Source: Opitutaceae bacterium
GTDB lineage: Bacteria > Verrucomicrobiota > Verrucomicrobiia > Opitutales > Opitutaceae
DNA length: 64,000 bases
NCBI GenBank assembly: GCA_027482185.1
Contig: JAIXWF010000003.1
Span: 310,001 to 374,000 of the forward strand
Direction of reading: 5' to 3'
Below the pieces are notes generated by a model. That model was not told the DNA's origin. It did not search any database and saw nothing but the letters and a program-made list of their open reading frames with translations. The translations under genes and the position numbers were made by a program. Position 1 is the first letter of the stretch; each line of letters begins with the position of its first letter. Below, one piece after another: positions 3,701 to 24,765 of the stretch.

Positions 3701-4425
3701 GCGGCACCGGCGGCAAGAGCGTCCTCATCCGCGGCGTAGGCCCCGCGCTCTCCGCCTTCGGCGTCGGCAACGCCCTCGCCGACCCCATCCTCACGGTCAA
3801 CCGCAACAATGTCCGTCTCTCCACCAACGACGACTGGGCCGGCGCCACCGAAATCGCCGCGGCCGCGACCACCGTCGGCGCCTTCGCCCTCGCGCCCGCT
3901 TCCCGCGATGCCGCGATTCTGGGGCCCGGCTTCACCGCCGGCAGCTATGTGATATCCCTCGAGGGCAAGAACAACGCCGGCGGTACCGCGTTGATCGAAG
4001 TCTACGACACGACCGCCGCTGCTACCATGACCTCCGCGAGCCCGCGTTTCACCAACATCGCCGCGCGCACCTTCGGCGGCACCGGCTCCGACACCCTCAT
4101 CGTCGGCTTCAGCATCGCCGGCTCCGGCTCCCTCCGCGTCCTCGTCCGCGCCAGCGGCCCCGGCCTCGCGCCCTTCGGCCTCACCGGCCTCATGCCCGAC
4201 CCGAAACTCGAACTCTATTCCGGCAACACCAAGCTATCGGAGAACGACAACTGGGACGCCGCCACCCTCGCCACGCAGAATTCCGTGGGCGCGTTTCCGT
4301 TTCCCGCCTCGTCCCGCGACGCCGTCCTCGTCGCCACGCTCACCCCCGGCAGCTACACCGCCCAGGTCGTCGCCCAAGGCGGCACCGGCGGCGTCGCCCT
4401 GCTCGAGCTGTACGAAATACCCTGA
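748..4425 (+). CDS. Large secreted RCC1-repeat protein with cadherin/Ig-like and C-terminal envelope modules
   Basis: 1225 residues. An N-terminal signal peptide ends near the AAAA of residues 25-31. About seven RCC1-type blades follow (to about residue 375), each with the pattern SDGTLWxxGxNxxGQLGxG. A cadherin-like insert begins NQAPTDILLS (about 388-480), then a second set of about seven RCC1 blades runs to about residue 820. Next is a beta-rich domain beginning GPANDAF and two tandem copies of the approximately 125-residue module found in the 8-19 kb proteins (patterns LIRGVGPALSAFG and LVRASGPGLAPFG). The chain ends LLELYEIP. RCC1 propellers bind proteins or other ligands; in secreted bacterial proteins the role is usually adhesion or is unknown. 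Start: ATG followed directly by a signal peptide, no Shine-Dalgarno. It is transcribed alone. Exported location is well supported, function is not. Confidence 0.88.
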   Translation: MRQRLALRRLFRLAAGRLLAALACASPAAAADLTATFVTGGATHNLFIKSDKTLWGMGWNLSYELGDGTTTRRPAPILIATDVVSAAGGGGHTLFVKSDGTLWATGANSRGQLGTGTTATRTTPAQIATGVVFVAAGDRHTLFIKSDDTLWAMGDNQYGQLGNGNRIDQSTPVLVATNVATVSSKAYHTMFIKKDGSLWGMGLNNYGQLGNGTDLTPAAPVQIVTGVASVSTGSYHTTFVKTDGSVWVTGFQSLGALGDGVTGTAYRTSPLQIDTGVISASAGDGHTMFVKSNQQRTETSLWATGSNIRGQLGLGNTTSRSTPIRVLNGALMVFAGNGTSFYITLDGSLWAMGYNDYGQLGDGTTTQRTSPVLIFGSGSAGGPNQAPTDILLSNSTVPQSAGANAVVGTLSTVDADSSTFTYSLVAGTGSTHNASFNLSGTSLRANNPAALAVGSYSVRIQSTDSGGLSFAKAFTISVVAGPIFGQSRRFAAGGFNTHIVRSDGSLFAMGTNPNGELGDGTLETRRTPVAVATGVHSVATGGTGTTLFVKNDGSLWATGNNNIGAYGDGTAVSRRSPVQVATGVLAAAVGTDGSFVLRNNFALFASGWNQYGTLGIGNTDRQFAPVAVSTDATIFAAGTDHAAFIRFNTLYTMGRNNRGQLGDGTRTSRLTPVQVATDVATVAVGYGHTLFVKLDGSLWAFGQNDSGQLGDGTTLVDRLVPVRIVAADVRSVGAGDYHSHFVKADGSLWSMGYNINGALGDGTFVSRSTPVQVATGVNAVDGGAYHSVFEKLDGTFWGMGGNVGNLGDGTTVSRPTPVRIRLGPANDAFAAAATLAGASGSLAGTTAFADRDATDPTVGNLTLTASVWYRWTAPASGNVTFRLTGASSGTFLAAYTGTTAGALTQVAADTLAGTVTVNAVAGTVYHVMVDRWSSGGTAFTLGWEQAGAPPAPPAASGLAYLSNLSVLARAGTQSETLTAGLTVGGGTGGKSVLIRGVGPALSAFGVGNALADPILTVNRNNVRLSTNDDWAGATEIAAAATTVGAFALAPASRDAAILGPGFTAGSYVISLEGKNNAGGTALIEVYDTTAAATMTSASPRFTNIAARTFGGTGSDTLIVGFSIAGSGSLRVLVRASGPGLAPFGLTGLMPDPKLELYSGNTKLSENDNWDAATLATQNSVGAFPFPASSRDAVLVATLTPGSYTAQVVAQGGTGGVALLELYEIP

Positions 4426-7676: not shown

Positions 7677-8312
7677 CTACGCCGCCGGCCGTTCCGCGGG
7701 TTCCGCGCCGAGGAGCATCGGCACGTGCTCCCGCAGGCGGCAGCGCAGGCGGTGCACCCGGGCCTTGATCGCGCCCACGGTCATGCGTTCCTGCCGGGCG
7801 ATCGCCTCGTAGCTCGCCCCGGCGACGATTCGATCGAAGATCCGGCGCTCCACCGGCGTGAACGTCAGGGCGGCCTGATCGAGCGCTTCGAGCAGTTCCT
7901 GGAGTCGCGATCCGTCCGCGGGATCCGGCGCACGCAGCCACGCGGCGTGGTCCCATTGCAGCGCCGGCTGCCGGCGCATCCGCCGCAGACGGTCGAGCAC
8001 GGAGTTGCGCGCCAGCGCAAACAGCCACGATTCGAAACGCAACGGCTCCCGCAGCCGCGGCAGCCGACGGACCAACTTGATGAGCACGTCCTGCACGGCG
8101 TCCTCCACGCCGTCCTGACGCCGCAGCATCCCGCGCACAAAGCCGGCCAGACGGACCTGGTAGAGGCCGACGAGCCGGGTCTGGGCGGCGACCTCGCCGC
8201 GCTGGGCCCGCTCGATGCACTGCAGCAACTCGGGCGTGGGGGTGCGGGACGGCGCCGATTCCCCGCTCGCGCGCGGGCGCCGGCGGAAGGTGGGGTTGAT
8301 CCGGATACTCAT
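7677..8312 (-). CDS. RNA polymerase ECF-type sigma factor
   Basis: 211 residues. Region 2 is readable from LVGLYQVRLAGFVRG through QDGVEDAVQDVLIKLVRRL and RFESWLFALARNSVLDRLRR (residues about 45-120), the core-binding and -10 recognition helices. Region 4 covers LTFTPVERRIFDRIVAGASYEAIARQERMTVGAIKARVHRLR (about 150-195), with the HTH recognition helix near TVGAIKARVHR. No zinc-finger anti-sigma partner is next to it. Its ATG lies three bases after the stop of the YHYH gene (TGA-ACC-ATG), so it is almost certainly the last gene of the envelope-protein operon that begins at 19186. This suggests a self-reinforcing switch in which the operon makes the sigma factor that may drive it; that is inference. 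Confidence 0.92.
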   Translation of the reverse strand: MSIRINPTFRRRPRASGESAPSRTPTPELLQCIERAQRGEVAAQTRLVGLYQVRLAGFVRGMLRRQDGVEDAVQDVLIKLVRRLPRLREPLRFESWLFALARNSVLDRLRRMRRQPALQWDHAAWLRAPDPADGSRLQELLEALDQAALTFTPVERRIFDRIVAGASYEAIARQERMTVGAIKARVHRLRCRLREHVPMLLGAEPAERPAA

Positions 8313-8315
8313 GGT

Positions 8316-11300
8316 TCAGGGCAGGTCGTAGAGTTCAAGCAGCGCCACGCCGGTCGTCGCTCCGGCGCCGGCGACCTGCACCGTGTAGGCGCCCGGTTCG
8401 AGGACCGCGATGCAGGCGGCGTCACGCGAGCCGACCGGCAGGGCGAAGGCCCCCGCGCGGGTGGACAGGGCCGGTACCGTCGCGGCGTCCGGATCGCTGC
8501 CCCAGTTGTCGTTGGTGCGGATCGCCGTCGCCGCGCCCTGCCGGAAAATCGCCAACTGCGGATCCGCCAACAGGCCCGTGACGCCGAACGGCGCCAACCC
8601 CGGCCCCACCGCGCGCACCAGCAGGCGCTTGGGCTCGGGCCCGGATACCACGAACCCGGCGATCAATACCTCGCCCCCGGTGCCGACGCGCGTGCGCGCG
8701 GACAGATTCGCGAGCGCCGCCGCGCCGCTGCCGGAAACCTCGTAGGCTTCGACAAGCGCGACGCCGCCCGCGGCATCCTTGCCCGTCACCTGCGCCGTAT
8801 AGGCTCCGGGCGCGAGCGGCAGCAGGACAGCGGCATCGCGCGCCGCCGGCGCCAGCGCGAAGGCCCCGGCCCCGGCCGCCGTCGCCGCGATCTCGCCCGC
8901 GTTGGCGGCCGCGCCCCAGTCGTCGTTGGCGGCGAGGTTGCCGCTGTTTCCCGCCAAGGTGAGCACCGGGTCCGCCAAGGTGCCCGCGACGCCGAACGCG
9001 CCGAGCGCGGGCCCGATTCCTCGCACCAGCAGCCGCGGCGCCGTCCCGGGGCCAACCACGAAGCCCACGATCAAAGTCTCGCTGCCGCTGCCGGCCCCGG
9101 CGCGCACCGACAAATTCGCCAGCCGCGCCGCGCCCAACACGATCCGCGCGTCGGCCGAGACGACCGCGCCGGCGGCATTGGTGACCGTCACGCTGTACAC
9201 GCCCGCATCGGCAGTCTGCACCCGAGGCAGCGAGAGTGTCGCTGCCGTCGCGCCGGGAATCGCGGCACCGTTGCGCCGCCACTGGTAAGCGACGGGGGTC
9301 GCGCTGGTCGCGGCTACGGTCAGGCTGGCCGCCGCACCGGCCGCGACGGTCTGGAAAGCGGCCGGCTGCGTCGCGATGACCGGCGGCTCGGCCAACGTCG
9401 CCGTGCGTACCACGAAAAACGGATACGACGACGCCATGGTCTCGTAGCTGATGATGCCCTGCGCCCCGCGCGGCGGCCCGGCGGCCGCGGGCACGGCGTT
9501 GTTGACGCCGAACTCGAGCAGCCACGCGCTCGTGGGCGCCCCGCCGCCGCCGCCGCGCAGCGCGGTCGACGACCAGTAGGCGGTGGCCGGCGTGGTCGCG
9601 ACGGGAAACAGCACGCGGTTCACCGGCGCCTGCGCGGCAGCTGCCTGCGTGGCGGTCGTCAGCGTGTAGTCCGTGAGGGTCTGCAGTTCCTTGATGTTGG
9701 GCAGGCGCCAGTCCGAGTAACCGGCAAGTGTCAGGCCCTCGGCGAAGGCCAGCGCGGCGGACCACGTCATCGCCGGCGCCGGGACCTGCGACCACATCAG
9801 GCGCGTGTCGAGGTCGGTCACGGTGCCGTCGAGGTTGTTGACGTAGTGGTGGCCGTTGCCCGGGCGGCCGCCGCGGACATAGCGCGCGTGATAGCGGAGC
9901 GTGCCGCCCGCGGACACCGTCTCGGCCTTCGGCTTCGGGCCGAGGCCGCCGCCCCGATTGAAGCACCAGACGCGGGTCGCATCGGCGCCGTAGATATCGC
10001 TGGTCCACCAGTACTCGGCGGCCCCGGCGGGGTTGGCCGGGAAGTACGTCGCGTTGAACGCGGGGTTGCCGTTGAAATTGCCGAGGCTGAAGAGCTCCGT
10101 CGGCGTCGGCAGGCGCCAATCGCCGTAGCCGCCGGTGGTCACGCTGCCGGCGCGGGCCACGGCGTTGTCCCAGGTCGTTTCCCCGGCGTCGACTTTCTGC
10201 CACATCAGTCCCGTGACGCGATCCGTGATGGTGCCGTCGCCGTTGTCCACATACGCGGGCGGATTGAGGGTGTAGTCGGAATCCTCGCCGAAGACCGGCG
10301 TGGCGTCGACGGTTTGGTCGGTATCCGGCAGCCGCGCGAGGCTCGGTCCGGCCATCGGGTAGGCCGTGAGCCGGTTGTTGTTGCTGTTGTAGGTCGTGGT
10401 CGTGGGCGGGATGTCGGGCAGGCGCCACGTCACCGTCATCGTCTTCGGGTTGGCCGCGCGGTTGAGCCGCCAGCAGAGGTCGTAGGTGGCGTTGCCGATC
10501 GCGATGCGCATCAGGTACTGGTCCGGCGACGGCGTCCCCGCCGGATCCTCGGCGAGATGCCCGGCGGCATCGGCCGCGAGCGCGACGGGGTGGCGGAAGG
10601 CGCGCACGCTCGCGCCCGGCACGGCCCGCGCGGTGTAGCCGCCCGTGCCCGAGGCGCGGATCGAACCCACCGTCGGCTGGCCGTCGACCTGACCGCCGTA
10701 GTTGATCACCGTGCCGTGGAACGCCGTCGGCAGATACGGGCTCTGCGGGCCCGCCGCGGCGCTGCCGACCGCATGGTAGTGGTAGCGCCAGACCCCGTGG
10801 TCGTGGCCGCCGTCGGCGTCGAGCGGCAGGCGGGCGGTGCCGTCTGGCTCCGTGTAGCCGTAGATCGGATACCCGTCGAGGGCCCAGGCCACGGGCTGGC
10901 CCGCGCCGACGACGGCCTGCAGGTGCACGGGCGCGAGATGGTAGTGGTAGTCGTCCGCGAGGCCGCAATGGCCGCCGTAGGCGTCCAGTTCGCCGATCTC
11001 GTAGGATACGCGGCCGGTGTTGTTCCGCGGGTTGAAGATCGGGATGCCGTCGGCGCCGATGGCGATCGCGCCGCGCTGGAAGTTGCCCGCGGAAATCGGG
11101 ATCGGCGCCGCGGACGGCACCGGCACGAGCGGCAAGCGCCAGACATTCGGTTTGGCGAAGCCGATGGACCCGGCGTCCCGCTCGGGATTGGTCGTGCTCC
11201 CGAAATAGGAAACCGGCACGGGAATCTGCTGCTGCCACGACGTGATGCCCACCATCAGATTCGGCATGCGCGCGGGGTCCGGCAGGCCGTCCGATTCGAC

Positions 11301-11561
11301 GTAGAAGGTCGTCGCGTCCCAGTACGCGCGCACCTTCGGCCGGAAGGCGCCGAACGAAGAGGCCATCGTCGGCCCGTAACCCGCCGGCGGCGCCGCGGCC
11401 ACCGCGGGGCTCGCGCCGTCCGCGCCGGTCTGGGCGCGCCACGCCGCGATCATGGCGTCGAGCTCGGCGTTGCCGTGGCTGCCGTCGTGGGCGAACGCCG
11501 GCAGCGCGGGCAGCAGCAGCGCGACCGCGCAAAGGAGAAATCGGAGGAGCGGCGAAAACAT
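8316..11561 (-). CDS. Secreted YHYH-domain protein with two DUF1566/Lcl domains, Ig-like domain and C-terminal modules
   Basis: 1081 residues from ATG 11561. Signal peptide LLRFLLCAVALLLPALPAFA. The first 350 residues form a YHYH domain with the diagnostic DDYHYHLAP and WRYHYHAVG motifs and conserved DGYPIYGY. Two DUF1566/Lcl C-terminal-like domains follow (DGTITDRVTGLMW...GDWRLPT and DGTVTDLDTRLMW...SDWRLPN), then an Ig-like domain (PAAFQTVAAGAAASL...YQWRRNG) and two copies of the approximately 125-residue envelope module (LLVRGIGPALGAFG, LLVRAVGPGLAPFG), ending LLELYDLP. YHYH proteins are exported and of unknown biochemical role; DUF1566/Lcl domains occur in adhesins. The frame is open upstream of 11561, but the signal peptide fixes this start, 13 bases past the previous stop. 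It is gene five of the six-gene run. Confidence 0.88.
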   Translation of the reverse strand: MFSPLLRFLLCAVALLLPALPAFAHDGSHGNAELDAMIAAWRAQTGADGASPAVAAAPPAGYGPTMASSFGAFRPKVRAYWDATTFYVESDGLPDPARMPNLMVGITSWQQQIPVPVSYFGSTTNPERDAGSIGFAKPNVWRLPLVPVPSAAPIPISAGNFQRGAIAIGADGIPIFNPRNNTGRVSYEIGELDAYGGHCGLADDYHYHLAPVHLQAVVGAGQPVAWALDGYPIYGYTEPDGTARLPLDADGGHDHGVWRYHYHAVGSAAAGPQSPYLPTAFHGTVINYGGQVDGQPTVGSIRASGTGGYTARAVPGASVRAFRHPVALAADAAGHLAEDPAGTPSPDQYLMRIAIGNATYDLCWRLNRAANPKTMTVTWRLPDIPPTTTTYNSNNNRLTAYPMAGPSLARLPDTDQTVDATPVFGEDSDYTLNPPAYVDNGDGTITDRVTGLMWQKVDAGETTWDNAVARAGSVTTGGYGDWRLPTPTELFSLGNFNGNPAFNATYFPANPAGAAEYWWTSDIYGADATRVWCFNRGGGLGPKPKAETVSAGGTLRYHARYVRGGRPGNGHHYVNNLDGTVTDLDTRLMWSQVPAPAMTWSAALAFAEGLTLAGYSDWRLPNIKELQTLTDYTLTTATQAAAAQAPVNRVLFPVATTPATAYWSSTALRGGGGGAPTSAWLLEFGVNNAVPAAAGPPRGAQGIISYETMASSYPFFVVRTATLAEPPVIATQPAAFQTVAAGAAASLTVAATSATPVAYQWRRNGAAIPGATAATLSLPRVQTADAGVYSVTVTNAAGAVVSADARIVLGAARLANLSVRAGAGSGSETLIVGFVVGPGTAPRLLVRGIGPALGAFGVAGTLADPVLTLAGNSGNLAANDDWGAAANAGEIAATAAGAGAFALAPAARDAAVLLPLAPGAYTAQVTGKDAAGGVALVEAYEVSGSGAAALANLSARTRVGTGGEVLIAGFVVSGPEPKRLLVRAVGPGLAPFGVTGLLADPQLAIFRQGAATAIRTNDNWGSDPDAATVPALSTRAGAFALPVGSRDAACIAVLEPGAYTVQVAGAGATTGVALLELYDLP

Positions 11562-11574
11562 GGGGACGCGGGGT

Positions 11575-12669
11575 TCAGGGCAGAACATAAACTTCCACGA
11601 GCGCGACGCCGGTGCCGCGCGCCGCACCTTCGACGCGGAACGTGTACGCCCCGGGCTCCAGCGTGAGCACGAGCGCACTGTCCCTGCTCCCCGCCTCGAG
11701 CGGAAACGCGCCCGCACGTTGCGCCGCCGCCGCAACGGCGGCCCCTCCGCCGCCCTCCTGCCAATTGTCGTTGGCGCCGACCGGCGCGCCGCCGCGTTGC
11801 ACGGTGAGCACGGGATCCGCCAGCAAGCCGCCGACCCCGAACCGCGCGAGGCCCGGCCCCACCGCGCGGACCAGCACGCTGCGGCTCGTGCCGCCGGCGA
11901 GCACGAAACCGGGAATCACCGCGGCGTCGTCCAAGCCCACCATCGCCCGCGTGGAGAGGTTGGCCAGCTGGCCGGCGCCGGCACCCGCCGCCGCCACCGG
12001 CAGAATCTCCGCGGGCAGCTGCGTCACGTCGAGGTCGGGCACCGTGTTCCAGCGCTTTGCGTGGCCGCGCGGGGCCGCGACGGTGGTGCGGAGGACGACG
12101 GTGTTGTCGAGGTTGAGATCGCCGGTCCAGATGAAGCGGGCGCCGGCGAAATCCGCGGCGACGTAGTCGCCGTCCGGCCCCACCCGCTCCGCCGGATACT
12201 CCGTGGCGAACTCCCAGGCGCGGTCGTCGAAATCGGGCGCGTACCAGCGGTCCGGCAGCGGGATCCGCTCGACCACCGGACCGTTCGGTCCGGTCCCGAG
12301 CGGCCCGCGGAAGAACGCCTTTGCCTTCCAGCGCGCGTCCGTGACGGTGCCGTCGCCCAACCTGAGGATGAAGCCCGCGTCGCCGATGCGGTCGCCGTAT
12401 TCGTAACCGCTGGCCGGGGCGGCGTTGTCCTTGGCGAGCACCGCGATCGTAAGCGGATACTCCGGCAAGATCCGGACGGAAATCTGGTTGTGCGGCAGGA
12501 AGTCGATCGCGTCGGCGGCCACGAGCTTCCCGTTGACGAAGATCGCGCACCAATTGTCGGCGTAGGCATGCAGCGTGATGGTATCGGCGACCGTCGGCTT
12601 GACGGTACCGGCCGGCTGGGCGAACGCGGCCAGAGCAAGCCACGGGAACAGTCCAAGGAGTCGTTTCAT
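11575..12669 (-). CDS. Secreted protein with one C-terminal envelope module, N-terminal domain unassigned
   Basis: 364 residues. A short signal peptide (MKRLLGLFPWLALAAFAQP) is followed by a beta-rich region of about 200 residues reading ITLHAYADNWCAIFVNGKLV and ARFIWTGDLNLDNTVVLRT. This resembles galactose-binding or cohesin-like sandwich domains, though I cannot name a family. One copy of the approximately 125-residue envelope module (VLVRAVGPGLARFG, then NDNW) closes the protein, which ends VEVYVLP. Its ATG overlaps the stop of the upstream phosphatase gene (ATGA at 12666-12669), a strong sign of translational coupling. Likely exported and envelope-associated; substrate unknown. Confidence 0.82.
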   Translation of the reverse strand: MKRLLGLFPWLALAAFAQPAGTVKPTVADTITLHAYADNWCAIFVNGKLVAADAIDFLPHNQISVRILPEYPLTIAVLAKDNAAPASGYEYGDRIGDAGFILRLGDGTVTDARWKAKAFFRGPLGTGPNGPVVERIPLPDRWYAPDFDDRAWEFATEYPAERVGPDGDYVAADFAGARFIWTGDLNLDNTVVLRTTVAAPRGHAKRWNTVPDLDVTQLPAEILPVAAAGAGAGQLANLSTRAMVGLDDAAVIPGFVLAGGTSRSVLVRAVGPGLARFGVGGLLADPVLTVQRGGAPVGANDNWQEGGGGAAVAAAAQRAGAFPLEAGSRDSALVLTLEPGAYTFRVEGAARGTGVALVEVYVLP

Positions 12670-15164
12670 GGCACTTCGTAAATCTCCACCAGGGCCACGC
12701 CGGTGCCGCCGCCCACGCCGCTGACCTGCGCCGTGTAGGCCCCGGGGGGCAGCGTCACGAGCAGCGCCGCGTCGCGCGAGGCCGGCGGCAGGGCGAACGC
12801 GCCGACCTGCGCGCCCGCAAGCCCGAGCTGGGCCGCGTTGGGCGCGGCAAGCCAGTTGTCGTTTTGCTGGAGCGCCGCGGCGGTGCCGTTGCGGAAAAGC
12901 GCGAGCTGCGGATCGGCCAGCACGTCGCCGACGCCGAACGCCGCCAGCGTCGGGCCCACGGCCCGGATGAGCAGCTGCTTCGGTGCGTCGCCCTGGATGA
13001 CGAAACCGGCGATGAGGATATCGCCGCCGGTCCCGACCCGCGTGCGGGCGGACAGATTCACGAGGCGCGCCGCGGCGGGGGCGGCGGCGGTATCGTACGC
13101 CTCGACCAGGGCCACGCCGGTCGCGGCCGCCTTGCCCGTCACGGCGGCGGAGTAGGCGCCGGGGGTGAGGTTGGCGAGCAGCGCCGCGTCGAGGCTGTTG
13201 GCGGCGAGCGCGAAGGCGCCGACGCGGGCCGCCACCGCCGCCGTCTGGTTGGCGTTGGTGCCGCGGGACCAATCGTCGTTCGCGGCGACCACCGCGCCGC
13301 CCGCGCCCGTCAGGGTCAGGACCGGATCCGCGAGGGCGCCGCCGACGCCGAAGGCTCCGAGCGCCGGCCCGACGCCGCGCAGCAGCACGGGCAGCGGTTC
13401 GCCCGGACCGACGACGCAGCCGACGATCAGGGTTTCGCCCCCCGAGCCCGCGGCGGATCGCACCGAAAGATTGACCAGCCGGCTGGCGCCGATCGCCAGC
13501 GTCGCCGGCGCGGACACGGTCGTGCCCGCCGACGTCGTCACGGCCACGGTGTAGACCCCGGCGTCCGCGGCCTGCACCCGCGGCAGCGAGAGCAGGGCGC
13601 CGGTCGCGCCGGGCAGATCGACGCCGTTGCGTTTCCACTGGTAGGACAGCGGCAAAGCGCTGGCGGCGCCGACAGAGAACGTCACCGCCGCCCCGGCCGA
13701 GACGGTCTGCGAGCGGGGCTGTTCCGAAATCACGGGCAGGCCGCCCTGGTCCGCGGCGGCGGCGAGCGTGTAGCTGTACGCGATCTCGCCGTTGCGCCGG
13801 CCGCCGGTCTCGTCCGCCGGCAGATATACGCGCACGTAGTCGACCTTCACGCCGGCGGGGCCGACGGTGACACGGGCGTAGCCGGAGTTGGGGAAACATT
13901 CCCCGGTGGCGTAGGCGTCGGAGTTGAACAGCGAGTAGTTGGGATCGGCGGGATTGCCGAGCGACTGGTAGACGACGCCGTCGAGCGACTGGCGCACGAA
14001 GATATGGTCGTGGCTCTGGAAGAAGACCGTGACCTTGTTGGCCGCCATCAGCTGGTGGATGGGCAGAGCCCAAGTAGGCCGGCGGGCGGCGAAGCCGGGC
14101 GTGCCGTTGTTGTTCTGGCCGCCCCACTCGTACTTCAGCGCGACGTCGATGCCGCCCCGTTGCGTGCCGAGGACGTGGTGCGCAAAGACGAATTTGTATT
14201 TCGCGCGGCTGGTCTCGAGCGTGGTCTTGAGCCATTGGTACTGCGCCTCGCCATGCGTGACGTTCCAGAGGTCGGCGGTCTTGGGCCCGCCGTAGAAATC
14301 GCCGTCCACCACGACGGGCGAACCCCAATAGGGATCGAGCGTCACGAACAGCGCGTCGCCCCAAGTGAACGCGAAATAGTTCCGCAGGAGCCCGATGTGC
14401 TCCACGGTTTCCGCGTTGCCGGTGTAGAAACCGTCCGGGGCCGGCTGCGGATAATGCGAATTCCGGGCGTTCTGCGCCCACACCGCGACATTGTTGGGCG
14501 TGCCGTCGAGCAGGTACCGCGCGGCCTGCTCGTGGTTGCCGTTGACGAGGAAGATCGCCGCGGCGCGGCCGAGGACGCCGAGATACGGACGCTGGATCGT
14601 GTAGCGTTCGACCACCTGCGCCTGCGTGACCGCGCGGGGATTGGCCTGGTTGATGGTGTCGACGCTGAAGTCGTCGCCGAGGGTGAAGAAGAAATCGGGT
14701 GTATCGCCCGCCACCGTCTGCATCATCCGCGTGTAGAGGGCGGAATCGAACATCTGGCGCGCGCGTTCCGGATGGGAATCGCCCTGCACGCCGAACACGA
14801 AGGTCGAGCCCGGGGCCCGACGGGTCATGAACGAAGCCTCGGGCGCCGCGTCGTAGACGGCGGCCCCGGCCGGCCGGAACCGGATCCGGTAATAGTAGCG
14901 CGTGTCGGGCTGCAGGCCGGCGAGCGCGATCTCCAGCGGCCGGCCCGCCGCCAGCGCCGCCGGCGCGGACTCGGCGGCATAGGCGCCGGACCGCGTCCCG
15001 TATTCGAGATAGACGGACAGATCCGCCGGCGCGAGCAGGTTGGCGGCGACGGCATTGCCTGTTGGCCGGCCGAGCACGAGCGTGCCCGGAAAATCGGCGG
15101 CGCGCAGGGCCGCGGCGCTTCCGAGGAGCGCCGCGAGCCGCCAGACGGTTCCGAATTTCGCCAT
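12666..15164 (-). CDS. Secreted purple-acid-phosphatase-like metallophosphoesterase with Ig-like and envelope modules
   Basis: 832 residues. Signal peptide to about residue 22, then an FN3-like N-domain (LEYGTRSGAYA...TRYYYRIRF). The calcineurin-like core follows with motifs in order GDSH, LGDDF, VNGNHE, FAHHVLG and FFQSHDH (residues about 130-385), the expected dinuclear metal ligands. The last motif is SHDH where GHxH is usual. After the enzyme come an Ig-like domain (PRSQTVSAGAAVTF...YQWKRNG) and two envelope modules (LLRGVGPALGAFG, LIRAVGPTLAAFG), ending VEIYEVP. Expected reaction: hydrolysis of a phosphomonoester or diester outside the cytoplasm. It starts 22 bases after the upstream Cys/His protein stop and its own stop overlaps the next ATG. 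Paralogue of the 16559-19186 product. Confidence 0.9.
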   Translation of the reverse strand: MAKFGTVWRLAALLGSAAALRAADFPGTLVLGRPTGNAVAANLLAPADLSVYLEYGTRSGAYAAESAPAALAAGRPLEIALAGLQPDTRYYYRIRFRPAGAAVYDAAPEASFMTRRAPGSTFVFGVQGDSHPERARQMFDSALYTRMMQTVAGDTPDFFFTLGDDFSVDTINQANPRAVTQAQVVERYTIQRPYLGVLGRAAAIFLVNGNHEQAARYLLDGTPNNVAVWAQNARNSHYPQPAPDGFYTGNAETVEHIGLLRNYFAFTWGDALFVTLDPYWGSPVVVDGDFYGGPKTADLWNVTHGEAQYQWLKTTLETSRAKYKFVFAHHVLGTQRGGIDVALKYEWGGQNNNGTPGFAARRPTWALPIHQLMAANKVTVFFQSHDHIFVRQSLDGVVYQSLGNPADPNYSLFNSDAYATGECFPNSGYARVTVGPAGVKVDYVRVYLPADETGGRRNGEIAYSYTLAAAADQGGLPVISEQPRSQTVSAGAAVTFSVGAASALPLSYQWKRNGVDLPGATGALLSLPRVQAADAGVYTVAVTTSAGTTVSAPATLAIGASRLVNLSVRSAAGSGGETLIVGCVVGPGEPLPVLLRGVGPALGAFGVGGALADPVLTLTGAGGAVVAANDDWSRGTNANQTAAVAARVGAFALAANSLDAALLANLTPGAYSAAVTGKAAATGVALVEAYDTAAAPAAARLVNLSARTRVGTGGDILIAGFVIQGDAPKQLLIRAVGPTLAAFGVGDVLADPQLALFRNGTAAALQQNDNWLAAPNAAQLGLAGAQVGAFALPPASRDAALLVTLPPGAYTAQVSGVGGGTGVALVEIYEVP

Positions 15165-15186
15165 GACTCAGCCTAGCGCCCGCGCA

Positions 15187-16581
15187 TTACGCGAACCCGC
15201 GGGAAAGGATTAACAGGCGGTAATTTTTCCCCCTGCCCCGCGACCGCTTGCGGCGGTAGACCTGCACCCGCACCGCGTCGCTGTGCCGGTAGATCGCGGC
15301 CACGTCGCCGAACCGCATCAACGCCCAGGGCACGAGAGGGCTCACCCCGTTTTTGGTGAAGACCAGTTCTCCCGCCACGTGCACGCAGGAGTGCAGGACT
15401 TCGCCCGCGGGGCCGAGAAAACAGACGAGGTCGCCGAGTTGCTCCGCCCGCGGCACCGGGTCGTACCCCTGCGTCAATTCGAGAAACGAGGGATACGGTT
15501 CGATAAAATAGAATCTGGGCTGCGGGGCGAAGAAGTTGAGCGCGGTCCAGTTGCAGTCGGGCATTCGGCCGCCGATCGCATCGCCGAGCCCGGGAAAGGT
15601 ATTCAAACGCAGACGGGCCAAAGGCGGCAGCAGCAAGGCGGCGTCGACTGTGCGTCCGCTTCCCGCGGCCGCGAGCGAACGCAGGAAAGGCAGCGCGGCC
15701 TCGCTCCTGCCGGCTGCGCTCCAATAGTCGACAAATTCGGACTCCCGGCCGGCCGGCACCCGTACCGTCGCCGAAACGGTCTGGAATCGGCCGAACGACC
15801 GTTTCGCCGCCACCACCTCCGCCCGGCTGCCCGACGCCAGGATCAGGGCGGGCAGGTCGCTGAACACCCGCGAACCGCCGCGGCGCCAGATCAGACGACG
15901 AAACAGGTCGCGCTGCGTCGCGGACAAGCCCGCCGCCGTCGTCTCCGGATCGCCGACGACCACCTGCGGGTGTCGATGGTACTGGTTCGAATCGCTCCTT
16001 CCGAGCTCGGCGTACAGCCGATCCCGCACGTCTCCCCCCACGGCCAGCAGCTGCTCGACCGTCAGTCTCACCGCCACCCCGGACCCGTCGAGCGCCATCT
16101 CCGCGCCGCGCATCAGGTCGGCCGTCGCCTCGTCGCCGAGACCGCAACGCCGCAGCCGCTCGGCAGTCCCGCTGAGATCCAAACCCGGAAACCGCCAGAT
16201 CGGACGCTGGTCGGCGACGGCGGCGGCTTCCAGAAACGCCTCCGTCGGCTCGAGGAAGAGATCCGTCGCCTCGAGTTCGCCCCACGGACCCACCTGCCGC
16301 AGCCGGCTTGCCTCGCGCCCGCCGGGCACGGCCGAAAATTCGGGCTCGGATCCGTCCGCCGCCGTGTGGTCGAACCACGCGGCCACTGCGACCGCGCCAA
16401 CCAGGCCGACCCACCGGATCCACGTCCCGAACGCTCCCCGGATCCGGTGCGTCGCCGCCGGCCGCCGGAGTATCGAGCGTTTCGGCCCCGCCGCCCTCGA
16501 CCGTTCCCGGTCCAGGCCGCCGGCCGGCCAACGGTCGGGCCCCGATAGCCTCGCCGGTTCAATTCGCCGGCTGGATGACAT
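15187..16581 (-). CDS. Membrane-anchored protein with NlpC/P60-like Cys/His domain, uncharacterised
   Basis: 464 residues. A basic N-terminus precedes one membrane segment (WIRWVGLVGAVAVAAWF, about 53-69), so the bulk faces the periplasm. The middle (about 85-330) is helical and unassigned. The C-terminal part has the arrangement of a papain-like/NlpC-type hydrolase: Cys343 in PDCNWTALNFF at the start of a helix, then GDLVCFLG, then LHSCVHVAGELVFTKNG with His397 or His401 as the possible base, and a final PWALMRFGDVAAIY. Possible activity is peptide or amide hydrolysis in cell wall or acyl transfer; this is inference from motif spacing. Its start overlaps the end of the upstream phosphatase gene by 23 bases, so it belongs to the same operon. 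Later in-frame starts are possible but would cut into the segment before the membrane helix. Confidence 0.72.
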   Translation of the reverse strand: MSSSRRIEPARLSGPDRWPAGGLDRERSRAAGPKRSILRRPAATHRIRGAFGTWIRWVGLVGAVAVAAWFDHTAADGSEPEFSAVPGGREASRLRQVGPWGELEATDLFLEPTEAFLEAAAVADQRPIWRFPGLDLSGTAERLRRCGLGDEATADLMRGAEMALDGSGVAVRLTVEQLLAVGGDVRDRLYAELGRSDSNQYHRHPQVVVGDPETTAAGLSATQRDLFRRLIWRRGGSRVFSDLPALILASGSRAEVVAAKRSFGRFQTVSATVRVPAGRESEFVDYWSAAGRSEAALPFLRSLAAAGSGRTVDAALLLPPLARLRLNTFPGLGDAIGGRMPDCNWTALNFFAPQPRFYFIEPYPSFLELTQGYDPVPRAEQLGDLVCFLGPAGEVLHSCVHVAGELVFTKNGVSPLVPWALMRFGDVAAIYRHSDAVRVQVYRRKRSRGRGKNYRLLILSRGFA

Positions 16582-19186
16582 AGGAATGCGAGATGGTCCG
16601 GTTGCGCAGCGTCGCGGTTTCCTGCGTGGGCAAGGCGGCCCGCACGTACTCGACGCGCGCGTTCTCCGGGCCGACCGTGATCCGGAGGTGGCCGGAGTTG
16701 GGCAAGATCACGCCCGTGGTGTATTCCCCCTCCCGGGCGCTGCCGGTGGAGAAGTTGCCCGTGCCGGGCTGCGGACATTCCTGGTACACGATCCCGTCGA
16801 GTTGCTGGTAAGCGTAGAGATGGTCGTGGCCGTGGAACACGGCGCTGACGCGGTTGGCGACCAGCAGGGCGTGGATGGGCATGTCCCAGCCGGGCCGTTT
16901 CTCGGCGAAGCCTTCGGTGCCGTCCGCGTTCTTCCCGCCCCACTCGTAGCGGTGCGCGGTTTCGACGCCCCCGCGGGCGGAGGCGATGCCGCCGACCAGG
17001 TGGTGCAGAAACAGGAATTTGTATTTGGCGCGGCTGCCCTCGAGCGTGCGTTTCAGCCAATCGTACTGTGCCCGGCCGAGCGACCAGCGCCAGTTGTCCG
17101 CGGGGTTGGAATTCGGATTGGCAACGGTGTTGTTGAACGGATCGAGCACGACGAACAGCGCATCGCCCCACTCCCACGCGTAGTAGTTTTCCAGCAGTTC
17201 GTTCCGCCCTTGCACGAGGCGCGTCTCCGCGCTGCCGCTGTAGAAGGCGTCGGGCACCGGCGTGGGAAACCAGCGTTTGCGCGCGATCAGGTTCCACGAG
17301 CTGAGGTTGTTGTCCTTCGTCGCCGAGCGGTCCGCGTCGTAGACGTACCGGTATTCCGCCTCGTGGTTACCCAAAGCGAAGAAGAACGGCACCGAATGCG
17401 CGAAAGCCGCGAACTGGTTGCGCAGCTGGAGTGCGCGGAACTCCACCGCCCCGTAATTGATCGCGAGGCCGGGAATGATCGTCGCGATCTTGTCGGTCAT
17501 GAAGATGTCGCCGAGATCGACATGGAAGTCCGGCGCATCGGCGGCGATGTTGCGCATCGCCAGCGCGAACAGGCCTGGATTCGTCACCTCGTCGAGATGG
17601 GGGTCCGCCGTGAGGGTAAACGCATACGTGTCCCCGCGCGGCCGCTGGGTGCGGAAGCTCCGCTCGCCGCGGCTGCGGTAGGCCGTTTCCCCGGCCAGCC
17701 GATAGCGCACCCGGTAAACATAGCGGCGGTTGGCCTGCAGCGGCACCCGCGGATCGCCCGACTCGAGCCTGATCTCCACCGGCGCGCCGGCGGCGAACGT
17801 CGCCGGCGCCGTCCGGTATTCGTAGCTGCCCGGCGCGGTGCCGATCTCGACGTACGCCTCGACGGCCGCCGCGGCCTCGAGGTTCACCGTCGCTCCCTGC
17901 ATCGTCGGAATTCCGAGAAACTCCGGCGAGGTGATCGCCGCATCGGTCAGCTCCGCCGCCACGAGATAGGACTGCGCCGCCGAAGCCGCCGCGCCGCCGC
18001 GGTCGTCGGTCGCGGCGACCGTGTAGGTCACCGTGGCTCCCGCGGGCTGCACCGGGATCGCCGCCCCGAAAACACCGTCGCCGGCCGCGCCGTCCGCATG
18101 CTTGCCGTCGTCGAACATCGTCGCCGTGGACGACGCCGACCCGACCCGCGATTCGAGCCGGACCTGCGCGACCGTCGCGCCCGCCGGCGGACGGATCCGC
18201 GCCGTCACCCAGACGGCATCGGCGTACGTCGGCACGGTCGGCGCCGTCGCCACCGCCTCGATCGTGAAGCCGGGCGTCGAAGCCGGCGCCGCCGCGGGCG
18301 GCTCGCTGTAGATTTCCACCAGGGCGGTGCCGGAGCTCCCGCCCACCCCGCTGACCACGGCCGAATAGGCACCCGCCGGCAGCGTCACGACCAGCGCCGC
18401 GTCGCGGCTGCCCGCCGGCAGGGCAAAGGCGCCGAACGCCGTCGCCGCCGCCGCCACCTCGCCCGCATTCGCGCCGGCGGACCAGTTGTCGTTCGTCGCC
18501 AGCGGCGCCCCGGCCCGGAAGAGCGTCAGCGTCGGATCCGCGAGCGCGCCGGCCACGCCGAAGGAGGCCAGCGTCGGCCCCACGGCCCGGACCAGCAGTC
18601 GCACCGACCCGGGGCCCGCGATCACGAAGCCCGGGATCAAAACGGCGTCGCCCGTGCCGACGTGCGCGCGGGTGGACGCGTTGACGAGAAAAGATCCGCC
18701 GGCCGGAGCCGCATCGTAGACTTCGACCAGCGCGACGCCCCCCGTCGCGTCGGCGCCGGCCACGGGCACCGTGTAAGCCCCGGGGGCCAGCGTCGCCACC
18801 AGCGCCGCGTCGCGGCTGCCGACCGGCAAGGCGAAGGCGCCCGCGCCTGTCATGCTCGCCGCATCCGCCACGAGCCAATTGTCGTTGGCGGCAACCGTCG
18901 TGGTACCGGTGAGCACGGTCAGCCGCGGATCCGCGAGCACCCCGCCGACCCCGAAGCCGGCAAGCGCGGGACCGACGGCCCGCACGAGGACGGGTTTGCC
19001 GCCAGCTCCGCCGACGACAAAACCCGGGATCGGCGTTCCGGCCGTGCCGCCGACGGCGACGCGCGTGGCGATGTTCACCAACCGGGCGGACGAGGGCTCG
19101 GCCGCGGACGCCGCCGCGGCCAGCACCAGCCATGCGGCTCCGGCCAGCCAACGAACGGGGACAAGGCGACGGAATCGTGCGATCAT
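16559..19186 (-). CDS. Secreted metallophosphoesterase with N-terminal envelope modules
   Basis: 875 residues from ATG 19186 (an in-frame ATG at 19210 adds eight residues). Signal peptide ends LVLAAAASAAEP. Here the two envelope modules are N-terminal (VLVRAVGPALAGFG about 60-75 and LLVRAVGPTLASFG about 190), followed by a Big-type domain (VTARIRPPAGATV, FDDGKHADGAAGDGVFG) and an FN3-like segment. The calcineurin-like core then shows TADPH, LGDIF, ALGNHE, FLHHLVGG and FHGHDH, a full set of dimetal ligands including the canonical GHDH. It is the first gene of the leftward operon that runs to the sigma factor. The 12666-15164 paralogue carries the same catalytic core with modules at the other end, so the modules have been shuffled between termini. 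Confidence 0.9.
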   Translation of the reverse strand: MIARFRRLVPVRWLAGAAWLVLAAAASAAEPSSARLVNIATRVAVGGTAGTPIPGFVVGGAGGKPVLVRAVGPALAGFGVGGVLADPRLTVLTGTTTVAANDNWLVADAASMTGAGAFALPVGSRDAALVATLAPGAYTVPVAGADATGGVALVEVYDAAPAGGSFLVNASTRAHVGTGDAVLIPGFVIAGPGSVRLLVRAVGPTLASFGVAGALADPTLTLFRAGAPLATNDNWSAGANAGEVAAAATAFGAFALPAGSRDAALVVTLPAGAYSAVVSGVGGSSGTALVEIYSEPPAAAPASTPGFTIEAVATAPTVPTYADAVWVTARIRPPAGATVAQVRLESRVGSASSTATMFDDGKHADGAAGDGVFGAAIPVQPAGATVTYTVAATDDRGGAAASAAQSYLVAAELTDAAITSPEFLGIPTMQGATVNLEAAAAVEAYVEIGTAPGSYEYRTAPATFAAGAPVEIRLESGDPRVPLQANRRYVYRVRYRLAGETAYRSRGERSFRTQRPRGDTYAFTLTADPHLDEVTNPGLFALAMRNIAADAPDFHVDLGDIFMTDKIATIIPGLAINYGAVEFRALQLRNQFAAFAHSVPFFFALGNHEAEYRYVYDADRSATKDNNLSSWNLIARKRWFPTPVPDAFYSGSAETRLVQGRNELLENYYAWEWGDALFVVLDPFNNTVANPNSNPADNWRWSLGRAQYDWLKRTLEGSRAKYKFLFLHHLVGGIASARGGVETAHRYEWGGKNADGTEGFAEKRPGWDMPIHALLVANRVSAVFHGHDHLYAYQQLDGIVYQECPQPGTGNFSTGSAREGEYTTGVILPNSGHLRITVGPENARVEYVRAALPTQETATLRNRTISHSYVIQPAN

Positions 19187-19312
19187 CGTCGGATTGTAGG
19201 CCGCCAACATGAAAACCGGCCCCGCGCCGCAATTAACACTCTGTCATTTTCCCCGGCGCGGAGCCTGCGAAACCCGTTGCCTCGCTCCCGCCGGCCCGCG
19301 TTGCTCCCGGGC

Positions 19313-19855
19313 ATGTCCGCCCGCCGCCCGCCGTCTCCGTCCGCCCTCGTCGTCGCCACCGCCTCCGCCATCCACGGCCGCGGCGTCTTCGCCCGCGCGG
19401 CCATCGCCGACGGCACCCGCATTCTCGAATACACCGGCGAGCGCATCACCAAGGCCGAATCCGAACGCCGCGACCAGGCCCGCATCGCCCGCGCCCGCCG
19501 TGGCGGCGACGGCTGCGTCTACATCTTCACCCTCAACGCCCGCACCGACCTCGACGGCCGCACCCGCCGCAACATCGCGCGCCTGATCAACCATTCCTGC
19601 GCGCCGAACTGCCGCGCCGAGATCGACCGCGGCCGCATCTGGATCTTCGCCCGCCGCGACCTCGCCGCCGGCGAGGAACTCACCTTCGACTACGGCTTCA
19701 GTTTCAAGAACTGGGAAACGCACCCCTGCCGCTGTGGCACCGCGCGGTGCCCGGGCTTCATCGTCGGCGCCCCCCACCGCTGGCGCCTCCGCCGCATTCC
19801 GCGCTCCCGCCGCCTCGCGATCGCCGCCGCCGCCCGCGGCCAAATTTCCCCTTAA
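19313..19855 (+). CDS. SET-domain protein-lysine methyltransferase
   Basis: 180 residues. The full SET core is visible: SAIHGRGVFARAAIADGTRI (N-SET), EYTGERI, then NIARLINHSCAPNC with the catalytic RLINHSCAPN motif, GEELTFDYGF, and a post-SET cysteine cluster CRCGTARCPGF that would bind zinc together with Cys of the SET core. It uses S-adenosylmethionine to methylate lysine side chains. Bacterial SET proteins of this size are found sporadically in Verrucomicrobia, Chlamydiae and others; their targets are mostly unknown. It is a single gene between the divergent operon start at 19186 and the riboswitch. The start is ATG 19313, because the open frame upstream is antisense to the phosphatase gene. 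Confidence 0.9.
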   Translation: MSARRPPSPSALVVATASAIHGRGVFARAAIADGTRILEYTGERITKAESERRDQARIARARRGGDGCVYIFTLNARTDLDGRTRRNIARLINHSCAPNCRAEIDRGRIWIFARRDLAAGEELTFDYGFSFKNWETHPCRCGTARCPGFIVGAPHRWRLRRIPRSRRLAIAAAARGQISP

Positions 19856-22538: not shown

Positions 22539-24683
22539 ATGGCCGCCCCGTCCCCGCTCCGTTTCGCCCTCGTGGTTTTCGCCTTCGGTCTCGCCGCCGC
22601 CGGCGGTCGCGCCGCCCCCGCCCTCGAAGCCCTCGACCGCGGCGTCGTCGCGATCCACCAGCCCGACGGCCGCGTCGCCGTCGGCTGGCGCCTGCTCGGC
22701 GACGAACCCGCCGACACCGCCTTCAACCTGTATCGGAAAACCGAATTCGTCCCCGGCCGCGCCCCCGTCGGCCTCGGCGGCGCCGGCCCGGGGGGCGGAG
22801 GCGCCGGCGGCGCCGGCAACCGCGGTCCGGCCGGCGGTCGCGGCGGCAACGGCCCCGGCGGCGGGGCTCCGGGCGCGCCGGTGAAGCTCAACGACGCCCC
22901 GCTCACCGGCCCGACCTTCTTCGTCGACGCCTCCGCCAACCTTTCCGCCAAGGTCTCCTACTTCGTCCGCGCCGTCGTCGCCGGCCGCGAACTCGAACCC
23001 AGCCGCCCCTTCCAACTCGCCGCCGGCGCCCCGCCGCTCCCCTACCTGTCCCTGCCGTTGCAGCCGCCCGAAGGCACCCAGCCCAACGACACCTCCGCCG
23101 CGGACCTCGACGGCGACGGCGACTACGACCTCGTCGTGAAATTCGAGCAGCGCCCGCGCGACAATTCGCAGGGCGGCCCCACCGGCGAAACCAAGCTCCA
23201 GGGCTACGCCCTCGATTTCACCGGCGCCGGCCCCGTCACCAAACTCCTCTGGACCATCAACCTCGGCCGAAACATCCGCGAGGGCGCGCACTACACGCAG
23301 TTCCTCGTTTACGATTTCGACGGCGACGGCCGCGCCGAGGTCGTCTGCAAAACCGCCGACGGCACCGTCGACGGCACCGGCAAGGTCATCGGCGATCCCG
23401 CCGCCAACTGGGTGCAGCCCGAGGGCGCCACCGCCAAAGTCATGCTCCCCGACCGCCGCACCGGCGTTGTCGCGGAACGCACGCTCAACCTCGGCGGCCA
23501 CGTCCTCAGCGGTCCCGAATATCTCACCGTCTTCGACGGCCGCACCGGCGCCGCCCTCGCGACCACCGCCTACGTGCCCGGCCGCCTCGACGGCAATCCC
23601 GCCCTCGATCCGCGCGCCCTCGCCGAGCGTTGGGGCGACGGCACCGGCAACCGCTCCGACCGCTACCTCGCCGCCGTCGCCTACCTCGACGGCGAGCGCC
23701 CGAGTCTCGTCATGTGCCGCGGCTACTACACGCGCACTGTCCTCGCCGCCTGGGATTGGCGCGACGGCAAGCTGTCCCCGCGTTGGGTCTTCGACAGCGA
23801 CACCTCCGACGAAAACCGGAAGTTCCGCGGCCAGGGCAACCACAACCTCTCCGTGGCCGACGTCGACGGCGACGGCCGCGACGAGATCGTCTACGGCGCC
23901 GCCGTCATCGACGACAACGGCCGCGGCCTCTACTCGACCGGCTGGGGCCACGGCGACGCCATGCATGTCACCGACCACCTTCCTTCCAATCCCGGCCTCG
24001 AGGTCTTCAACATCCAGGAACGTTTCGCCGGCGAAGGCATGAATCTCCGCGACGCCGCCACTGGCCGCCCGCTCTTTCTGTTGCCGTCGACCCAAGCCGC
24101 CGCCACCGGCGGCGATGCCGGCGAAGGCCCGGGCCGCGGCGCCGCCTTCAACATCGACCCGCGCCACCCCGGCTCCGAACTCTGGGCCGCCGGCGCCGGC
24201 ATGACCGGCCTCTATTCCGCCGCCGGCCAACGCATCTCCGACCGCCGCCCGCGCGCCGTGAACTTCGCCGCGTGGTGGGACGGCGATCTCCTCCGCGAGC
24301 TCCTCGACCGCAACGTCGTGACGAAATGGAATTGGGAAAACGGCACCGAGACTCCGCTCCTCGTCGCCCAAGACGCCACGTCCAACAACGGCACCAAGGC
24401 CACCCCCACCCTCAGCGCCGATCTGCTCGGCGATTGGCGGGAGGAAATCATTTGGCGCTCCACCGACGGCAAAGAGCTGCGTCTCTACACCACGACGATC
24501 CCCACCCCGCACCGCATGCCCACGCTGATGCACGATCGCCAGTACCGCCTTGCCGTCGCCTGGCAGAATATTGCCTACAACCAACCGCCCCACCCGAGCT
24601 TCGCCCTCGACGAAGGCGCGCCGTTGCCCGTCCGCGCTCCGGTCGCCACCGTCGCCGCGAAAACCGCTCCCCGTTCCCCTTAG
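22539..24683 (+). CDS. Secreted rhamnogalacturonan lyase, PL11 family
   Basis: 714 residues. Signal peptide to about residue 27. An N-terminal FN3-like domain (GRVAVGWRLLGDEPADTAFNLYR) is interrupted by a Gly/Pro/Ala-rich insert of about 35 residues (about 82-118). The rest is the eight-bladed propeller of PL11, with repeated calcium loops DLDGDGDYDLVVK, DFDGDGRAEVVCK, DVDGDGRDEIVYG and conserved WGDGTGNRSDRYLA, SLVMCRGYY and LLGDWREEIIWR. PL11 enzymes cleave the alpha-1,4 bond between rhamnose and galacturonate in rhamnogalacturonan I by beta-elimination. It is followed by a second PL11-like gene 82 bases downstream, so the two were probably acquired or kept together as a pectin-degrading operon. 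Start: ATG after ATACCCC, no good Shine-Dalgarno. Confidence 0.92.
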   Translation: MAAPSPLRFALVVFAFGLAAAGGRAAPALEALDRGVVAIHQPDGRVAVGWRLLGDEPADTAFNLYRKTEFVPGRAPVGLGGAGPGGGGAGGAGNRGPAGGRGGNGPGGGAPGAPVKLNDAPLTGPTFFVDASANLSAKVSYFVRAVVAGRELEPSRPFQLAAGAPPLPYLSLPLQPPEGTQPNDTSAADLDGDGDYDLVVKFEQRPRDNSQGGPTGETKLQGYALDFTGAGPVTKLLWTINLGRNIREGAHYTQFLVYDFDGDGRAEVVCKTADGTVDGTGKVIGDPAANWVQPEGATAKVMLPDRRTGVVAERTLNLGGHVLSGPEYLTVFDGRTGAALATTAYVPGRLDGNPALDPRALAERWGDGTGNRSDRYLAAVAYLDGERPSLVMCRGYYTRTVLAAWDWRDGKLSPRWVFDSDTSDENRKFRGQGNHNLSVADVDGDGRDEIVYGAAVIDDNGRGLYSTGWGHGDAMHVTDHLPSNPGLEVFNIQERFAGEGMNLRDAATGRPLFLLPSTQAAATGGDAGEGPGRGAAFNIDPRHPGSELWAAGAGMTGLYSAAGQRISDRRPRAVNFAAWWDGDLLRELLDRNVVTKWNWENGTETPLLVAQDATSNNGTKATPTLSADLLGDWREEIIWRSTDGKELRLYTTTIPTPHRMPTLMHDRQYRLAVAWQNIAYNQPPHPSFALDEGAPLPVRAPVATVAAKTAPRSP

Positions 24684-24711
24684 TCCGACTTGTGCGAGCC
24701 GGGACCGCCGC

Positions 24712-24765
24712 GCCTTCCCTCCTCCTCGCTCCTCACTCCTCGCTCCTCGCTACTCCCTCCACCCC
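24712..24765 (+). repeat. Short pyrimidine repeat CTCCTCGCT/CTCCTCACT
   Basis: The 82-base gap between the two PL11 genes is filled by imperfect tandems of CTCCTCGCT, ending CCACCCC directly before the ATG. It has the same style as the other low-complexity spacers and leaves no room for a Shine-Dalgarno sequence. Confidence 0.55.

Follow-up and report, generated by a model that had tools for sequence, protein, structure and literature searches.

A gene cluster for a YHYH protein and an ECF sigma factor in Opitutaceae, with two predicted promoters of CusR type

A cluster of six genes was analysed in 64,000 nucleotides of an uncultured Opitutaceae bacterium (GenBank assembly GCA_027482185.1, contig JAIXWF010000003.1, positions 310,001 to 374,000), a stretch called the window in the following. 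The genes code for two metallophosphoesterases (MPP; genes mpp1 and mpp2), a Cys/His protein, a small protein with a predicted CBM67-like domain, a YHYH protein and a sigma factor of the extracytoplasmic function (ECF) type. A sequence-only reading of the window had proposed a co-regulated set of probably exported proteins together with an ECF factor, and shared promoter sites, a sigma factor with a clade of its own and a gene content recurring among relatives support this. The self-amplification by the sigma factor proposed in the same reading was not supported: the shared promoter has a sigma70-like -10 element and a CusR-type dyad, occurs at loci whose fetched stretch contains no sigma gene, and tracks the recognition helix of response regulators (RR).

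The best explanation, with chances that are about even for the whole, is an exported set for binding and de-esterification of glycans under a CusRS-like switch, with the sigma factor as an output. A CusS/CusR-like two-component system, encoded beside a canonical copy of the cassette on another contig of the same genome (locus L167), would sense an envelope signal. Its response regulator would bind CusR-box-like dyads in trans and turn on two leaderless promoters, P1 and P2. The exported proteins would bind anionic glycans via the CBM67-like domain, Lcl_C and perhaps the immunoglobulin-like (Ig) domains and modules. Phosphate esters would be removed by the window copy and sulfate esters by the sulfatase of the canonical copy, probably for the scavenging of phosphorus and sulfur or for glycan preparation. 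The ECF factor lacks an adjacent anti-sigma gene; it would be controlled by its own transcription, as a second-tier output and not as master.

Predicted promoter sites and the candidate regulator

Two sites of one form precede mpp1 and mpp2 (Table 1), both predicted as leaderless promoters with regulator dyads. The general form, taken from 48 non-redundant sites, is ATKAM-N6-KTMAT-N18-KTMAT-N10-TAnnnT with the start codon about 5-7 bases on. The last T of the -10 element was present in 47 of the 48 sites, at a position which, like the -10 and start positions in general, lies outside the scanned 65-mer. A scan of the window (127,840 positions) ranked the sites before mpp1 (47.3 bits) and mpp2 (37.0 bits) first and second, the third site scored 7.1 bits, and the best score in 20 Markov (shuffled) copies of the window was 9.0 bits; the scoring model consisted of 43 rows with the window rows left out, the others having been gathered with an iterated position weight matrix (PWM) that was trained on its own matches and had the window P1 site among its 13 seeds. 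The sequence-only reading had proposed a search for a common promoter motif before position 19186; the predicted P1 is such a motif, and similar sites were found at related loci. A strict pattern, ATKACRG-N4-TTAAT, derived by comparing the upstream regions of first genes, matched 18 times in the fetched loci (2.69 Mb), and 1, 0 and 0 times in three Markov copies. The 18 matches represent 15 different 65-mers, some contigs being the same or near-copies, and nearly all lie directly before cluster genes. In 27 genomes of the same genus the strict pattern occurred at 32 sites, compared to 3 in the controls.

No such site was found before the other four genes of the window. Therefore P1 would drive mpp1 and the gene of the Cys/His protein, and P2 would drive mpp2 and the genes of the small protein, the YHYH protein and the sigma factor. 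The 22-bp gap before mpp2 holds the predicted -10 element, thus mpp2 probably has its own promoter. Of the single operon that had been proposed, the tight array of six genes stands, but two transcription units are predicted.

Several distributions of the site weigh against the preferred explanation. Outside the genus (30 other genomes), the strict pattern was found 44 times, not far above the 21 in controls. Five of the 16 YHYH-positive genomes of the genus lacked a strict site (G001, G003, G009, G017, G026), and two of the 11 YHYH-negative genomes had one: G019, which carries a Cys/His-ECF locus, and G020, in which the strict sites are a deletion scar plus a likely chance match. At the former site of G020 (L293; G020:C40, 6144, minus strand) the regulator site is followed by a short open reading frame (ORF) joining the apparent N-terminus of a YHYH protein to an MPP C-terminus, an apparent deletion scar in a genome without YHYH match.

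The regulator site and its assignment to a response regulator are probably correct. Where the nearest RR had the recognition helix LVDVY, 18 of 19 loci presented a site with at least 16 of 18 positions matching; loci with other helices had none (0 of 12), with a best match of 13 of 18. Random 570-bp draws from the same loci reached 16 positions in 3 of 400 cases. Calculated by hand, the association has a probability of about 9 in 100 million if the rows are independent, and some are near-copies. L182, included among the 19, is the only LVDVY locus whose tested regions hold no site, though it has sites elsewhere; L192 was left out of the count, its helix being unreadable. In the canonical copy (L167) the site matched in 18 of 18 positions, with RR and histidine kinase (HK) genes divergent from it. 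Divergence from the nearest YHYH or small-domain gene was observed for 20 of 28 RR-bearing frames, and of four 'convergent' cases two (L239, L210) are overlaps of stop-to-stop frames. It counts against the assignment that the helix comparison was confined to loci whose fetched stretch includes an RR, that its rows are not independent (L170 and L179 lie on one contig, L180 and L183 are near-copies), and that among the 54 loci examined L189 carries a full site in a stretch that lacks an RR.

The closest known system is CusRS/CopRS. The cusR-cusC gap of E. coli contains ATGACAATTTTGTCAT, the same dyad, which on sequence grounds makes the dyad at the target promoters a CusR-type element (ATGAC-N6-GTCAT). 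The recognition helix is similar as well, and 15 aligned LVDVY-type RRs were 39-44% identical to E. coli CusR, a range shared by several RRs with other helices. As in E. coli, the regulator is divergent from the target operon in canonical copies. The RRs of L167, L292 and L124 scored best on TIGR01387 (CusR/CopR) with 203.5, 218.6 and 208.1, and the kinase of L124 on TIGR01386; all are below cut-off (279.2 for TIGR01387), which counts against membership in these families. Further differences are the third half-site, the predicted leaderless starts and the targets, which are hydrolases and lectin-like proteins instead of metal exporters.

Another explanation is a metal or oxidative envelope-stress response, in which the CusRS-like system would sense copper, silver or an oxidant, and YHYH with EF-hand partners would handle metal. 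The family scores, the cusC-type dyad and a YHYH block that may bind metal (see below) would fit, and at L070, a related sigma locus, what appears to be the gene of a heavy-metal P-type ATPase is located near EF-hand proteins. However, YHYH is repeatedly accompanied by sulfatases, phosphoesterases and glycan-binding-like domains, no metal exporters were seen among the labelled genes (no profile search for them was made), and the scores stay below the heavy-metal cut-offs. In L160 the cassette is retained, but the kinase there is closest to CpxA, the helix is a different one and a site is absent. We consider a metal response rather unlikely.

The ECF sigma factor

The last gene of the cluster in the window codes for a sigma factor that exceeded the cut-offs of the region 2 model (PF04542, 53.1 bits; cut-off 24) and of the ECF superfamily model (TIGR02937, 69.7; cut-off 42.9), while region 4.2 (PF08281, 19.5 bits) remained below cut-off (25.7). 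Matches at E <= 0.001 were found in 56 of 57 relatives, the best (<1e-20) in 27 genomes of the same genus and in G028, G029 and G030. A tree of 59 sigma factors contained one clade of 12 rows, that of the window among them (bootstrap 100; Shimodaira-Hasegawa-like approximate likelihood ratio test, SH-aLRT, 99). The clade rows were drawn from cluster loci plus L178 and L209; ten lie with YHYH, MPP or small-domain genes, and the other two, L086 and L090, have of the gene set only the Cys/His and sigma genes. As a point against, three of 13 cluster sigma factors (L067, L069, L118) fell outside the clade; a single clade of all 13 was not rejected (approximately unbiased test, p-AU 0.161). The sigma gene had been described as ending the cluster, which is true for the window; in L062, L066, L067, L069 and L074 it lies inside.

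As the sequence-only reading had stated, no anti-sigma candidate is present among the six genes, judged by the ORF list and profile search, a difference to canonical ECF systems. The Cys/His protein was considered for this role and thought unlikely, its N-terminal part being variable or missing in relatives. In principle, the sigma factor could drive the operon that encodes it and an envelope regulon beyond. Its cluster-linked clade, the lack of an anti-sigma gene and same-type sites that directly concern the sigma gene, being located upstream of it at L118, L180 and L183, are compatible with such self-amplification. The sole shared promoter that was found is of activator/TAnnnT type, with the dyad at fixed phase to the -10 element, and follows the RR helix. 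Sites of this type also occur where the fetched stretch contains no sigma gene (L197, L202, L217, L225); some of these genomes have a sigma gene elsewhere, e.g., the L217 site is identical to that of G015, which carries L076. In the same prefiltered scan no site exceeded 16 bits at loci of the sigma groups A and B, and the strict pattern with up to two mismatches had one site in the whole genome of the window. Self-amplification is thus quite improbable.

The preferred role of the sigma factor as an output of the CusRS-like switch has a parallel in SigE-CseABC of Streptomyces: ECF factors without anti-sigma under transcriptional control by a two-component system are described, e.g., SigE-CseBC (PMC8999054). 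The likeness lies in an ECF factor without paired anti-sigma and in two-component control, here predicted; the difference is that the regulator does not adjoin this operon. The cluster may serve as a testable case of two-component control over an ECF factor whose gene has no anti-sigma gene as neighbour. For uncultured Opitutaceae it also supplies a predicted architecture of leaderless promoters.

Other sigma factors were observed near related genes. In five loci labelled as Planctomycetes (L211, L214, L216, L226, L244) a different ECF lineage lies upstream of the small-domain gene, which suggests repeated recruitment of ECF factors to the cassette, although this part of the tree is uncertain owing to long branches. 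In L165 (12347-13797) an ECF gene is followed by a gene whose 309-aa product contains a hydrophobic segment, had no Pfam match and is a possible anti-sigma; this gene lies directly before a YHYH-EF-PEBP-small domain fusion. L070 and other group-A loci present a separate recurring context, in which related sigma genes adjoin two-component genes, EF-hand proteins and Ig/module proteins.

A recurring cassette and its proteins

A scan of genome contigs with a profile of the small domain yielded 289 related stretches; the following counts rest on the best 78 loci (mean length 14.2 kb), and 28 loci around group-B paralogues of the sigma gene served as controls (17.5 kb). YHYH was found in 62 of the 78 loci, MPP in 45, sulfatase and PEBP in 36 each, RR in 27 and ECF in 16. 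The controls had four loci with sulfatase and none with YHYH, MPP or PEBP. HK and RR genes were common in the controls too (26 and 19 of 28), a point against reading the two-component genes as part of the association; the presence of an RR alone therefore proves nothing. All six gene kinds are held by L124, and three to five by L062, L066, L067, L069, L074, L076, L087 and L118. Within the genus the content recurred and the order was shuffled; a conserved gene order, which the sequence-only reading had suggested as a check, was not found, and order was rejected as a measure of conservation. A conserved association of the cluster genes is almost certain, less so for the Cys/His gene, which was found in 1 of 78 small-domain loci, while 15 further Cys/His loci lacked YHYH, MPP and ECF genes. 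This gene is weakly tied to the set, its link being limited to a few close relatives; the protein was matched in 21 of 57 relatives.

The broader cassette consists of YHYH, PEBP, the CBM67-like domain, an S1 sulfatase and a metallophosphoesterase. By record title, it is carried by Verrucomicrobia, Acidobacteria, Planctomycetes and Armatimonadetes; most records are metagenome-assembled genomes, thus single phylum cases may be misbinned. The canonical copy in the genome of the window (L167) comprises YHYH-PEBP, sulfatase, MPP and small-domain genes with the divergent RR and HK genes. A canonical YHYH was present in all 12 same-genus genomes that carry the window-type YHYH. The window set is an elaborated second copy of this conserved cassette. 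A third YHYH gene in the same genome (G000:C20:253320-254081, in an 811-aa frame) was the best of three PF14240 matches (E 3.6e-37).

The phosphoesterase assignments of the sequence-only reading, like those of YHYH/Lcl_C and an ECF-type sigma factor, were reproduced by profile search, the second phosphoesterase at a score below cut-off. MPP1 reached 34 bits with PF00149 (cut-off 21.5) and has all metal motifs (DPH, GDIF, GNHE, HH, GHDH). MPP2 was just under cut-off with 19.3 bits; its motifs are DSH, GDDF, GNHE, HH and QSHDH in place of the usual GHDH. The motif GNH[DE] was present in 54 of 55 MPPs across related loci, and the sulfatase motif CxPxR in 35 of 42 sulfatase domains. For the Cys/His and small proteins, neither Pfam nor NCBIfam gave a match at E <= 1. 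In 18 aligned rows of the Cys/His protein C343 and H397 were invariant, K410 and N411 nearly so; there was no Pfam or PDB sequence match of note, and by this pattern it is possibly papain- or NlpC/P60-like.

For the small domain, a model with a mean pLDDT (predicted local distance difference test) of 86.7 had its best structural match in the CBM67 of S. avermitilis alpha-L-rhamnosidase (3w5n, residues 167-299; VIA Z 10.3, root mean square deviation 3.1 over 119 residues), and Foldseek gave 3w5m at E 0.047 with probability 1.00. The model thus points to a CBM67-like fold. Residues D18 and N19 were invariant in 61 rows. CBM67 is described as a calcium-dependent, non-catalytic module of the rhamnosidase, seen with rhamnose bound (PMC4690510). 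In difference to it, the small domain is found by itself, joined to a module, or in fusion with YHYH and in many cases PEBP; a fusion with YHYH in one protein was counted by hand in 24 of 78 loci. Against PDB sequences, profile A4 gave five weak matches, four of them antibody constant regions, and profile A2 gave 2okx at E 0.062.

The YHYH protein contains a block, D159-D160-Y161-H162-Y163-H164, that was invariant in 55 rows and appears fit for metal binding. Its model had no PDB match at E 0.001 with Foldseek, and the best VIA Z was 5.4 over 50 residues, which is no proof of a new fold. A partnership of YHYH with CotH, VTC or DUF4956 was considered but not seen in the loci read, e.g., L070; no profile search was made. 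In many species YHYH is fused to PEBP, EF-hand and CBM67-like domains. For a family (PF14240) for which we found no assigned function, the recurring partners, fusions and a predicted regulator site supply a genomic context.

The CBM67-like fold and the likeness to Lcl, together with sulfatases and phosphoesterases, suggest binding and de-esterification of anionic glycans, a role which we regard as possible, with chances a little short of even. The Legionella protein Lcl with its DUF1566/Lcl_C domain is described to bind sulphated glycosaminoglycans (PMC11162425). Caution is advised by several observations: the same source calls the generic role of DUF1566 unclear, the small domain had no Foldseek match at E <= 0.001, a lectin of the mushroom Pleurotus follows closely in its structural comparison (Z 9.4-9.7), the YHYH model resembles no PDB entry at the above threshold, and the six genes include no glycoside hydrolase.

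Polysaccharide utilization loci with S1 sulfatases combine sulfatases and carbohydrate-binding domains in a regulated cluster. This resembles the cassette, with its sulfatases and carbohydrate-binding-like domains, whereas the YHYH-PEBP-CBM67-like architecture and the metallophosphoesterases set it apart, as does the lack of a SusC/SusD pair (profile search of the six genes) next to that of a glycoside hydrolase. The proteins might alternatively act on the own envelope or matrix, in remodelling, a sheath or a biofilm, and not on external polymers. The possible papain-like Cys/His protein, a module used by many proteins of the genome, neighbouring FGE, arylsulfotransferase and Kelch genes and a cellulose-synthase-like gene near the cluster in L164 would agree with such a function; ester removal and lectin-like domains fit external polymers equally. 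We judge an action on the own envelope improbable. A more far-reaching form of the glycan hypothesis is a cross-phylum ester-processing system around YHYH, in which YHYH would be a metal-dependent enzyme acting with sulfatase and MPP on a shared anionic glycan, and a repurposed CusRS-type switch would command a dedicated ECF factor. We consider this proposal rather unlikely.

In the literature searched, which left most subscription journals outside, no paper joins YHYH with a metallophosphoesterase or sulfatase, and none with this gene set was found, in line with the earlier remark that no described system has it. Genes for the sulfatase-modifying FGE and for an arylsulfotransferase are located in or adjoining the clusters of L064 and L283. 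Same-type sites precede the sulfatase, arylsulfotransferase, FGE and YHYH genes of L064 and the FGE-module gene of L283.

Cluster layout and neighbouring genes

The coordinates are collected in Table 1. All six minus-strand ORFs translated as the sequence-only reading had placed them, and its five tight junctions were reproduced exactly: a 23-bp overlap, a 22-bp gap, an ATGA overlap, a 13-bp gap and a 3-bp gap.

Table 1 Genes and predicted promoter elements of the cluster (window positions)
Feature	Position	Strand	Basis
P1, predicted regulator dyad ATGACAGAGTGTTAAT (ATKAM-N6-KTMAT)	19232..19247	-	PWM, 47.3 bits
P1, predicted third half-site TTCAT	19209..19213	-	motif alignment
P1, predicted -10 element TACAAT; mpp1 ATG 6 bases on, predicted leaderless	19193..19198	-	motif alignment
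mpp1, calcineurin-like metallophosphoesterase, probably exported; two modules at the N-terminus	16559..19186	-	ORF, profile search
Cys/His protein with hydrophobic N-terminal segment	15187..16581	-	ORF, alignment
P2, predicted regulator dyad ATTACCGCCTGTTAAT, within the 3' end of the Cys/His gene	15209..15224	-	PWM, 37.0 bits
P2, predicted third half-site GTAAT	15186..15190	-	motif alignment
P2, predicted -10 element TAGGCT; mpp2 ATG 5 bases on	15170..15175	-	motif alignment
mpp2, probably exported metallophosphoesterase with Ig and two modules	12666..15164	-	ORF, profile search
Small gene, predicted CBM67-like domain (modelled stretch 11965-12609) and one module	11575..12669	-	alignment, structure prediction
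YHYH protein, YHYH, two Lcl_C, Ig and two modules	8316..11561	-	ORF, profile search
ECF sigma factor, member of the cluster-linked clade	7677..8312	-	profile search, tree

A module of about 128 aa occurs seven times across the six proteins. The envelope module that had been proposed is thus present in the cluster proteins, but it is not specific to them, because the module (about 130 aa, often in tandem pairs) had 149 matches in the 6.4-Mb genome (G000), among them a region of the window at 748-4425. Compared to family models, it had a threshold match to NF038127 only. It has the look of a domain used generally at the surface or for sorting.

Two neighbouring regions were recorded. A bacterial SET-domain gene at 19313-19852 is divergent from the predicted promoter P1. 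Two rhamnogalacturonan lyases of family 11 are encoded on the opposite strand at 22539-26799, starting 3.4 kb from the cluster, which is of note beside a predicted CBM67-like domain.

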